From Acidimicrobiia bacterium (lineage in GTDB: Bacteria; Actinomycetota; Acidimicrobiia; Acidimicrobiales; AC-14), in the NCBI GenBank assembly GCA_023264995.1, contig JAHFUR010000006.1:1-64000 (forward strand): 64,000 nt of DNA, read 5' to 3'. A program made the position numbers and the translations under genes. The notes beneath the pieces were generated by a model. It saw nothing but the letters and a program-made list of their open reading frames with translations. It made no database searches and was not told where the DNA came from. Below are positions 44,345-47,886 of this stretch, piece after piece (within the stretch, counting starts at the first letter, position 1; the number at the start of each line of letters is the position of its first letter).

Positions 44345-45214
44345 CTAGGCGATCTGGACGGGCGTGCCGATCTCGACGGTGTTGGCCAGGCGGGTGATGT
44401 CGGCGTTCTTCATGCGCAGGCAGCCGTTGCTGACCGCGTCGCCGATCAGGCTGGGCGCGTTGGTGCCGTGCATGGCGATCTGGCCGACGCCGGTGCCGAA
44501 GCTCATCAGCACTTCGGAGAAGGCGGCCACCGAGAGCTGGAACGGGCCGTAGACGCCGCTCGGGTCCGGCGTGCGCACCGCCCCGTCGATGTAGTAGTTC
44601 CCCCTGGGGGTGGGGGTGGAGGACGTGCCGATGGCCACCGGGGCCTCCATCACCGGCGTTTGGCCGTCGTAGACGGTCATGGACCGGGCGGCCAGGCTGA
44701 CCACGATGCGGTGGGTCACCTGGCGGAGGTTGACGTCGGCGGCCCGGACCCAGGCGGTGGTCTGGTTCGGCCGGGTGTTGAGCTGGACTTCGAGCCAGTC
44801 GCCCTGGCGCTGCTGGACCAGGAACACCAGGGGGAGCCCTTCCCAGGTGGGGTTGGTGAACGAGTCGTCGGCCTCGGGCTGGCCGGGGGTGCTGTAGAGG
44901 CCGATCGTGGCGCCCTTCACGTCGGCCACGGTGGCCGGCGCGGCGACGGGGCGGGCCACGCCCCGGCGCAGCTTGCTGCCCGGGACGTTGAGCAGCTCCG
45001 GCGCCGGCGGGTCACTGACCGTGGGCGGGGGGACGGTGGTGACTGCCGGCGCGGCCACGGTACGGACCACGTCGGGGTCGAACCGGCCGGCGGCGGCGGT
45101 GGGCTCGGTCCGGACCAGCCGGAGGAGGCCCACCACGGTCAGCGAGCTGGCGAGGACCACCAAGGCGACCACGGCGACGAGGAACCGCCGCGAGCCGGCT
45201 CGACGATCGGGCAT
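44345..45214 (-). CDS. L,D-transpeptidase (YkuD)
   Basis: 289 aa. An N-terminal membrane anchor (about 10-32), a Pro/Thr linker, an SH3-like region (about 95-160) and the YkuD domain with MHGTNAP and catalytic Cys in SNGCLRM (near 267). It makes 3-3 peptidoglycan cross-links or attaches proteins to the wall. ATG 45214 is 6 nt after TAGCCT; the TTG at 45220 lies in the spacer and is less likely. Confidence 0.94.
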   Translation of the reverse strand: MPDRRAGSRRFLVAVVALVVLASSLTVVGLLRLVRTEPTAAAGRFDPDVVRTVAAPAVTTVPPPTVSDPPAPELLNVPGSKLRRGVARPVAAPATVADVKGATIGLYSTPGQPEADDSFTNPTWEGLPLVFLVQQRQGDWLEVQLNTRPNQTTAWVRAADVNLRQVTHRIVVSLAARSMTVYDGQTPVMEAPVAIGTSSTPTPRGNYYIDGAVRTPDPSGVYGPFQLSVAAFSEVLMSFGTGVGQIAMHGTNAPSLIGDAVSNGCLRMKNADITRLANTVEIGTPVQIA

Positions 45215-45227
45215 GGGCAAAGGCTAG

Positions 45228-45530
45228 CTACTCCGGCGTGGCCAGCGGCAACAGCACCTCGGTCAACGCCCTTAGCCCGGGGTCGGCCAGCGGTTCGTGG
45301 GCGGTGAGGCTGCGGAGCCGGCGGCCGGTGACGACGAGGTCGTACTGGTAGGTGTCGGCCGCGCCCGGCATCGGCGCCGGCCGCCTCGCCGGCGGGTCGA
45401 AGTCCACCTGGGCGAGGGCGGCGCGGACGGCCGAGGCCGTGGCCGGCGGCAGTTCGTCGAGGTCGACGGCCGCCACGAGGGACAGCCCGGCGAAGCCGCC
45501 GCTCCGGGTCAGCTTCACCTGGGTGCCCAC
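45228..45530 (-). CDS. Emfourin-type inhibitor of M4 protease
   Basis: 100 aa: VKLTRSGGFAGLSLVAAVDLD opens the protein in a pattern shared with protealysin inhibitor emfourin, followed by a YDLVVTG strand. Emfourin genes sit next to protealysin-like M4 peptidases and block them in the cytoplasm. Here the gene starts 2 nt after the M4 stop, on the same strand. GTG 45530 is chosen; the frame extends upstream but overlaps the protease. Confidence 0.85.
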   Translation of the reverse strand: MGTQVKLTRSGGFAGLSLVAAVDLDELPPATASAVRAALAQVDFDPPARRPAPMPGAADTYQYDLVVTGRRLRSLTAHEPLADPGLRALTEVLLPLATPE

Positions 45531-45532
45531 GG

Positions 45533-46597
45533 CTAGAGCATCACCTTGGTCTGGTCCCACGCGCCGCGCACGGCGTCCACCTCGGGCGAGGTGTCGCCGA
45601 AGCGCATCTGGGCCTGGCGCACGGTGGCCCGCCCGAAGGCCTTGAATCCGCTGGTGGGCTTGACCTTGTTGTCACGCAGGGCGTCGTACCAGATGCGGCC
45701 GGCCTTCTCCCAGGCGTTGCCACCGATGGCGGTGGCCGCCAGGTAGAACGCGTGGTTGGGGATGCCGGAGTTGACGTGGACGCCGCCGTTGTCGGCTGCG
45801 GTGTTGACGTACTTGTCCATCGTGGCCGGCTGCTTGTCGTACTGGTTGGCCGTGCCCGGCGCCTTCATCGACCGCAGCGCCGGCTGCAGCGCCGGCCCGA
45901 CGACGTCGTTGCCGATCAGCCAATCGGCCGTCGCGGCGGTCTGCTTCTTGGCGTACTGCTTCACGAGGGAGCCGAACACGTCGGACATGGACTCGTTCAG
46001 CGCGCCCGACTGGCCCTGGTAGACGAGGTTGGCCTCGTACTGGGTGACACCGTGGGTCAGCTCATGGCCGATCACGTCGAGGGACGCCGTCAGCCGGGTG
46101 AAGAGCTGGCCGTCGCCGTCGCCGAAGAACATGTGGCCCTGGCCGTCCCAGAAGGCGTTGGCGTAGTTGACCGCGTAGTGGACCAGGCCGAGGATCGGCA
46201 TGCCGGCGTTGTCGATGGAGTTGCGCCCGTAGACGTCCCAGTAGAGCTTGTAGGTGGCGCCGAAGCCGTCGTAGGCCTCGTTGACCGCGGGGTCCTTGGT
46301 GGCCTTGGAACCCTCGTTGCGGGCGACGGTGCCCAGGGCCATGGCCGTGCTGTGCTTCTGGTCGTAGATGGTGCGGTGGGGTTGCCCGCCGGCGCCGCCC
46401 ATGGCCCGCATGGCGACGGGGCTGGCGGCCACTGTGGCCGCGAACGCGGCCCGCAGGGTGCGGAACGACGAGTCGATGGCGATGGTGTCAGCCGCTGCCT
46501 CCCGCTCGGCGCGGTTGCCGCCCCGGATGATGTCGCGGAGGAGATCCGGCGGGACGATGCAGGCGAACGGGGACCGATGGTGCTGGCTCGGGTGCAT
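45533..46597 (-). CDS. Protealysin-like M4 metallopeptidase
   Basis: 354 aa, short for thermolysin relatives. There is no signal peptide and only a brief propeptide with HHRSPFACIVPPDLL (6-20), as in protealysin-type precursors. Zinc site H178-E-x-x-H182 (VIGHELTHGV) and E202 (ALNESMSDVFG); the substrate/proton donor region is NSGIPNHAFYL. It is expected to be a cytosolic or unconventionally released neutral protease held in check by the downstream inhibitor. Start ATG 46597 has AAAGGAG upstream. Confidence 0.95.
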   Translation of the reverse strand: MHPSQHHRSPFACIVPPDLLRDIIRGGNRAEREAAADTIAIDSSFRTLRAAFAATVAASPVAMRAMGGAGGQPHRTIYDQKHSTAMALGTVARNEGSKATKDPAVNEAYDGFGATYKLYWDVYGRNSIDNAGMPILGLVHYAVNYANAFWDGQGHMFFGDGDGQLFTRLTASLDVIGHELTHGVTQYEANLVYQGQSGALNESMSDVFGSLVKQYAKKQTAATADWLIGNDVVGPALQPALRSMKAPGTANQYDKQPATMDKYVNTAADNGGVHVNSGIPNHAFYLAATAIGGNAWEKAGRIWYDALRDNKVKPTSGFKAFGRATVRQAQMRFGDTSPEVDAVRGAWDQTKVML

Positions 46598-46641
46598 GGC
46601 TGCTCCTTTGTCTGGGTGGTGCGGGGTGAGGGTGCGGCTGG

Positions 46642-47886
46642 TTAGGGAGGTGGTTGCAGCTTGGGGAGGTCGATGGGTTGGCAGGCGAAGGCCATGGGGT
46701 CGCCGCCGGCCAGGGCGATCATCCGGCCCGCGGCCTCGTTGAGCCGGGCCTCGCTCAGCTCACCCTTCTGCACGGCGACGACGAGCCCGTGGACCATGTC
46801 GCGGGCGAACTTGCCGTCGGTGGTGAGCACGCCGTCGGCGCCCGACTGGATGGCCTTCACCGAGGCCTCGGCCCAGTCCCAGCGCTGGTTCACCGCGCCC
46901 ATGCCGATGGAGTCGGTGATGGCCACGCCCTTGAAGCCCATCTGGCGCAGCAGGGTGTAGGACCGGGCCGACATGCTGGCCGGCGTGGCGGGGTCGAGGG
47001 CGGCATAGTCGACGTTGCTGACCATGACGACGGGGATGCCCTGGCCGATCAGGTCGCTGAACGGCTTGAGGTCGTCGGCGCGCAGGTCGTCGAGCGTCTC
47101 CGTGGAGATGATGCGGCCGACGTGGTCGTCGCCCTGGGCCTTGGCCCGGCCGGGGAAGTGCTTGGCCACCGCGCCCACGCCCTTGTCGGCCAGCCCGAGG
47201 GCGTAGGCGTAGGCGTAGCGGGCTGCGACCGCCGGGTCGGCGCTGAAGGACCGGTCGCCGATGGTGCCGGTGGACGGGCCACCGTCGAGGTCGGCCACCG
47301 GCGCCAGGTCGAGGGTGATGCCGATGGCCGACAGGGCGGTGGCCTGGTCGCGGGCCAGCGCCCGGACGGCGTCGGTGGTGCCGGTGGCCGCCAGCCGGCG
47401 GGCCGACGACGTGTACCCGATGATGTGGCCGAAGCTGGTGACCCGGCCCGGCTCCTCGTCGGTCGAGACGATCAGCGGGTGGGGTGACTGGCGCTTCAGG
47501 TCGGCGATCAGGCGGGTGGCCTGGGCCCGGGTCTGCACATTGGGCCCGGTGATGAGGACGCCGCCGACGCCAAGCTTCGTGACCTCGGCGGCGAGCGCCT
47601 GGGAGCCGTCGGTGACGTTGGGCAGCCCGACGATGAGCACCTCGGCGGCCCGCTCCCGCAGCGTTGCCTCCGGCTGGCACGGCGCCGCGGTGGTGGTCGG
47701 CGCGGCGAGGGCGACCGCCGGCTGCGCCTCACCGAAGCTGGGGAAGAAGAAGTGCACCGGGCCGCTCACCACGTCGACGGGGGTCGAACCGGTCGCCGCG
47801 CCGGCGGCGGCCAGCACGGTGAAGACCGCCAGCGCGATCGTCAGGCGGATGCGCCCGGGCCCGAACGTGCCCCGCCCTCCTTGCAC
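46642..47886 (-). CDS. Exported glycoside hydrolase family 3 (NagZ-like)
   Basis: 414 aa. Signal peptide (about 12-34), then the GH3 (alpha/beta)8 barrel: GVGGVLITGPNV, STDEEPGRV, LDLAPVADLDG, AKHFPGRAKAQGDDH and ITDSIGMGAV with the catalytic Asp. Relatives are beta-N-acetylhexosaminidases acting on peptidoglycan fragments. In NagZ the conserved His lies in KHFPGHG...DSH; here KHFPGR and DDH are variants. GTG 47886 is 7 nt after TAGCTT. Confidence 0.88.
   Translation of the reverse strand: MQGGRGTFGPGRIRLTIALAVFTVLAAAGAATGSTPVDVVSGPVHFFFPSFGEAQPAVALAAPTTTAAPCQPEATLRERAAEVLIVGLPNVTDGSQALAAEVTKLGVGGVLITGPNVQTRAQATRLIADLKRQSPHPLIVSTDEEPGRVTSFGHIIGYTSSARRLAATGTTDAVRALARDQATALSAIGITLDLAPVADLDGGPSTGTIGDRSFSADPAVAARYAYAYALGLADKGVGAVAKHFPGRAKAQGDDHVGRIISTETLDDLRADDLKPFSDLIGQGIPVVMVSNVDYAALDPATPASMSARSYTLLRQMGFKGVAITDSIGMGAVNQRWDWAEASVKAIQSGADGVLTTDGKFARDMVHGLVVAVQKGELSEARLNEAAGRMIALAGGDPMAFACQPIDLPKLQPPP

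Follow-up and report, generated by a model that had tools for sequence, protein, structure and literature searches.

A protealysin-type M4 protease gene with an adjoining emfourin gene and a prosegment cysteine in an Acidimicrobiia bacterium

The protease and emfourin genes

A locus containing two adjoining genes, which encode a protealysin-type M4 metalloprotease and a protein of the emfourin family of protealysin inhibitors, was identified in the genome of an Acidimicrobiia bacterium (assembly GCA_023264995.1). The DNA analysed, referred to below as the window, comprises the 64,000 nucleotides from position 1 to 64,000 of contig JAHFUR010000006.1. The locus very probably specifies a cytosolic M4 protease made as a latent zymogen, together with a dedicated inhibitor made from the next gene. 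This reading is carried by the presence of both genes, the intact catalytic motifs, the lack of a signal-like N-terminus, a 2-nucleotide coupling found across the genus, purifying selection, a nearly one-to-one linkage confined to M4 enzymes with a short precursor, and a natural fusion of the two proteins at one locus. The features of the locus are as follows:

45533..46597, minus strand: protealysin-type M4 metalloprotease, 354 amino acids, ATG start (family searches and motifs)
45228..45530, minus strand: emfourin (protealysin inhibitor family) gene, 100 amino acids, GTG start (PF20242)
46603..46609, minus strand: Shine-Dalgarno-like AAAGGAG, 5 nucleotides 5' of the protease ATG (read from the sequence)
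46559..46561, minus strand: codon of Cys13 (calculated from the protease start at 46597)

The protease matches the Pfam families Peptidase_M4 (E 2.5e-29) and Peptidase_M4_C (E 7.5e-56). Its top sequence match in the PDB is 2vqx (residues 13-351, E 3.1e-97), which is deposited under the title 'metalloproteinase' and which we take to be the protealysin precursor; thermolysin is matched at E 1.4e-50, and a profile of nine sequences matches 2vqx at E 5.7e-133. The catalytic motifs of an M4 enzyme with HExxH and a distal glutamate motif are intact (HELTH at 178-182, NESMSD at 201-206 and DNGGVH from 269). The short precursor of the CIVPPDLL type named in the original prediction was confirmed: the prosegment has a PPL-type motif, its PP occupying residues 16-17, and this region aligns with SVIPPYML of 2vqx. 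The predicted lack of a signal peptide on the protease agrees with hydropathy, the only measure applied: neither the protease nor emfourin has a strongly hydrophobic, signal-like N-terminus, their best 17-residue Kyte-Doolittle means being 1.28 and 1.14, as against 2.23 and 2.81 for two neighbouring wall enzymes, a GH3 glycosidase and an L,D-transpeptidase, respectively.

Emfourin matches PF20242 with 65.9 bits (curated cut-off 27; E 4e-18). Its structural model has a predicted local distance difference test score (pLDDT) of 79.5. In a Foldseek search with this model, Serratia emfourin (6zyg) ranked first, though at E 6e-3 and with a template modelling score of only 0.40, and VIA-align gave a Z of 5.1 for the same pair.

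Two nucleotides (45532 and 45531) separate the stop codon of the protease gene from the start codon of emfourin, so that the predicted distance is borne out by the open reading frame coordinates 45533 and 45530. The same spacing is found, by coordinates, in both congeners, Acidimicrobiia bacterium nzgw82 and Acidimicrobiales AVDCRST_MAG10, which are also the nearest relatives (81-82% protease identity). An alternative emfourin GTG at 45560, proposed by a mechanical open reading frame finder, would give 110 amino acids; the start was placed at 45530 because both congeners start at the equivalent position. A sigma-70 promoter scan found no promoter. The window genome, which is congeneric with Acidimicrobiia metagenome-assembled genomes, contains one M4 match and one emfourin match. 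Ratios of nonsynonymous to synonymous substitution rates among the three congeners lie between 0.24 and 0.27 in the protease and between 0.31 and 0.43 in emfourin; both genes are under purifying selection in the genus.

Linkage of emfourin to short-precursor M4 proteases

The two families were searched in 396 genomes of the phylum, and 35 short-precursor M4 genes of full or nearly full length were counted; the fragments G478:C52 and G577:C215 lie outside this count. An emfourin gene adjoins 33 of the 35, 29 being recognised by Pfam and four by an emfourin profile (G303, G540, G549 and G530). The emfourin gene of G501 lies 1.2 kb downstream of its protease. The same profile found emfourin at none of 20 long-precursor M4 loci, which were chosen by hand and contain 22 of about 62 long-type rows (Fisher p 5e-13 for 33/35 versus 0/20, uncorrected for kinship). 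Likewise, none of the 33 Pfam emfourin rows across the 396 genomes stands beside a long-type M4 row when the rows are compared by eye. Emfourin is rare at class level (7 of 296 genomes, 6 of them above the cut-off), and M4 matches occur in 5 of the 296. The co-occurrence across genomes to which the original prediction had looked was thus found, and the emfourin/protealysin module that it proposed is upheld by family, anatomy, synteny and co-occurrence. The rule is also sharpened: emfourin accompanies short-precursor M4 enzymes and not long-precursor ones.

In one genome (G374) the protease and emfourin are joined in a single open frame (L080:7177-8667) by a linker rich in Ser, Thr, Gly and Ala. 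Other arrangements were also observed. The gene order is reversed at L102:2590-3891 and L171:2134-3574, where emfourin precedes the protease, and the emfourin of L102 is broken across two frames beside undetermined bases. The protealysin-type gene of G648:C46 (L031, L117) contains one in-frame TAG, and its emfourin frame is open.

Plasmid-borne copies were also inspected. Six of 12 plasmid records were opened, all from outside Actinomycetota (Caballeronia, Nostoc (two), Hymenobacter, Rhizobium and Pseudomonas); the other six comprise four from Streptomyces and one each from Rubrobacter and Klebsiella. On four of the six opened plasmids the neighbour is already annotated as 'protealysin inhibitor emfourin'; of the remaining two, Nostoc C052 has no gene under this name and the Pseudomonas record carries no annotation. 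The protease-emfourin pair is a known, already annotated module, to which the window adds an Acidimicrobiia example.

A conserved cysteine before the PPL motif

The window protease has a single cysteine, Cys13, which stands at -3 from the PP of the PPL motif, where autoprocessing would be expected. A cysteine three or four residues before the motif is present in 31 of 41 aligned enzymes (20 at -3 and 11 at -4, with neither in 10), L081, which has SP in place of PP, being included among the 31. The 41 enzymes are 40 from the phylum and one from Acidobacteriota and represent 41 of 42 protealysin-type loci; the copy left out is that of G648 (L117), whose match begins at residue 70 and which has the internal TAG. 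Counted by aligned column, a cysteine stands under Cys13 in 36 of the 41, some of them via gaps, and the stricter count by distance (31/41) is preferred. No other cysteine column is common to more than 7 of the 41 enzymes. With L168 added, the trait takes five changes on a quick tree, as compared with a mean of about nine when the trait is shuffled, and only one of 500 shuffles was as low. All six enzymes from the opened plasmids carry a cysteine at -3 or -4. The Serratia prototype has Ser, not Cys, at this place in the 2vqx alignment (SVIPPYML), and it therefore appears as the minority type, since most aligned enzymes and all of those opened on plasmids carry the cysteine.

Matrix metalloproteases are cysteine-switch zymogens. 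It is tentatively proposed, from conservation, that most protealysin-type M4 proteases may be so as well. Under the reducing conditions of the cytosol, the cysteine, at P1 or P2 of the prosegment processing site, would be a ligand of the catalytic zinc; at cell lysis the thiol would be oxidised and let go of the metal. The death of the cell would thereby arm the enzyme, and emfourin would serve as a second lock. Cys13 should adjoin the zinc, because the first cleavage in Serratia falls at this bond; the PPL motif contacts the S' subsites in the protealysin precursor. The Serratia precursor structure could not have revealed such a switch, because it has Ser at this place. The proposal is weakened by the 10 enzymes that lack the cysteine and retain the rest of the module, and by the use of two positions.

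A literature search joining 'protealysin' with 'cysteine switch' returned nothing relevant, most subscription papers lying outside its coverage, and the main text of PMC6778150, its logo figure apart, contains neither 'Cys' nor 'cystein'. The conserved prosegment cysteine may be an undescribed part of how the protease is kept off, and a new lead beyond the known module. If the switch is real, activation in much of the subfamily would include a step triggered by redox change or lysis, for which the prototype enzyme has no counterpart.

Neighbouring genes, alternative readings and known systems

Two further genes flank the pair:

46642..47886, minus strand: GH3 family glycosidase, beta-N-acetylhexosaminidase-like, with a hydrophobic N-terminus, 44 nucleotides upstream of the protease; genus-level neighbour
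44345..45220, minus strand: YkuD L,D-transpeptidase with a hydrophobic N-terminus, 3' of emfourin; genus-level neighbour

The products match GH3 (PF00933, E 3e-61) and YkuD (E 7.5e-23), respectively. Emfourin and the L,D-transpeptidase are 7 or 13 nucleotides apart, depending on whether the latter starts at TTG 45220 or ATG 45214. A second, contig-cut copy of the protease-emfourin-L,D-transpeptidase array (L166) occurs on contig C177 of the congener G655, whose assembly thus holds two copies, as a paralogue or through a mixture of strains.

The origin of the window protease was considered from the quick tree, in which the enzyme falls in a starred set of nine rows with four Nocardiaceae enzymes and two others. 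G658, which belongs to the same family as the window genome, has a 49%-identical enzyme on a long branch outside this set. Because the window protease groups with Nocardiaceae while the G658 enzyme falls outside, the tree suggests that the former was acquired from, or exchanged with, such bacteria.

In the proposed mechanism, a short prosegment of some 50-70 residues would fill the active-site cleft via the PPL motif until it is clipped, and any enzyme maturing while the cell is still alive would be blocked by emfourin, bound to the active site in a 1:1 ratio. With these two locks, a protease of broad action would do its producer no harm before lysis, or before exit by a route not visible here. 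A protease stored in the cytosol under two locks is the simplest reading of the locus, because the same parts as in the Serratia module are present. In Serratia the protealysin and emfourin genes are reported to form an operon, and emfourin to bind protealysin 1:1 in the active-site region (PMC9505478). The same study compared growth and FtsZ in strains without emfourin or without the entire operon (PMC9505478).

Inhibition, 1:1 binding and intracellular storage of the precursor would hold at this locus by analogy with Serratia. Several observations weigh against this reading. The two short-precursor genes that lack an adjoining emfourin occur in G462 and G615, each as a second copy; these enzymes (L107:7108-8325 and L108:6977-8224), from genomes of 9.9 and 8.6 Mb, have instead a C-terminal extension of some 50 residues, and their existence without an emfourin neighbour implies that the inhibitor is dispensable. 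Conversely, emfourin-domain proteins are encoded in five genomes with no M4 match (L110, L111, L115, L113 and L114, in G022, G113, G282, G384 and G637, respectively). The structural assignment of emfourin is also modest: unrelated Mago proteins slightly outscore 6zyg in VIA-align (Z 5.7-6.3), phmmer with the single emfourin sequence found nothing in the PDB at E up to 1, and the emfourin profile reached 6zyg at a non-significant E of 1.4, with an unrelated chain ahead of it at 0.21. An AlphaFold2 model of the protease built from nine sequences was discarded as poor (pLDDT 41.6).

Chance adjacency of an M4 protease and an unrelated small gene is practically excluded by the linkage of 33/35 versus 0/20, the fusion in L080 and the emfourin family match above the curated cut-off. 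The original prediction of a secreted or inter-bacterial weapon, here taken as an effector protease that would be passed to neighbouring bacteria or to host cells, with emfourin as its immunity protein, is an unlikely account of this locus. The operon arrangement and the pairing with an inhibitor would suit it, and a toxin-and-immunity idea for protealysin and emfourin is already in print for Serratia, where protealysin is reported to cleave FtsZ and RecA (PMC9505478). It is left unsupported here, however, since no signal-like N-terminus or other export signal was seen by hydropathy, and neither a VipB match of the type VI secretion system nor a Phage_sheath_1 (contractile sheath) match was found in the window genome (97.95% complete). 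A search for EccB of the type VII secretion system gave no match in the window genome, yet none in the control genomes either, and is uninformative.

The wall-related setting named in the original prediction is retained as synteny of the genus, since the order GH3-protease-emfourin-L,D-transpeptidase, the strand and the close spacing are kept in all three of its genomes. As a property of the module it is not retained: no relative of the window GH3 or L,D-transpeptidase was found by phmmer (1e-4) beside 40 further loci of the protealysin type (39 and L168), whose searched flanks covered 5-8 kb per side, far less at contig ends, so that distant family members could escape. That the four genes form a wall-remodelling operon, with the protease trimming or activating the wall enzymes, is very unlikely; the conserved synteny would fit it, but the lack of such relatives at those 40 loci speaks against it, as do the N-termini, which are signal-like in neither the protease nor its inhibitor and hydrophobic in both wall enzymes. 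In G659, a member of the same family with no M4 match, the relatives of the GH3 and L,D-transpeptidase genes lie on different contigs, which also argues against such an operon. Insertion of the pair into a pre-existing GH3-L,D-transpeptidase operon is not supported, the separate contigs of G659 giving it no backing.

The reading as a latent cytosolic protease with its own inhibitor places the locus closest to the pln-m4in operon of Serratia proteamaculans, with which it shares a short-precursor M4 enzyme, the lack of a signal peptide, the PPL motif and the arrangement of emfourin and protease in one operon (PMC9505478, PMC6778150). It differs in having GH3 and L,D-transpeptidase neighbours; moreover, the Serratia genome reportedly holds type VI secretion genes (PMC11172720), whereas the window genome has no VipB match. 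Thermolysin and other long-precursor M4 proteases have the same catalytic fold and zinc motifs and differ in their long precursor and in the lack of emfourin at 20 of 20 loci. The Streptomyces subtilisin inhibitor family likewise consists of small protease inhibitors, and the emfourin model aligns with it at Z 4.5-4.8, close to the 5.1 obtained with emfourin itself. Members of that family are secreted and act chiefly against serine proteases, in which they differ from a cytosolic emfourin. For the proposed switch, the analogy lies with cysteine-switch zymogens such as that of mirolysin, of the pappalysin family (PMC6949598), the likeness being a short prosegment whose cysteine would reach the catalytic zinc. 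Mirolysin and the matrix metalloproteases belong to other metalloprotease families, and in the protealysin-type enzymes a switch of this kind is hypothesised from conservation only.
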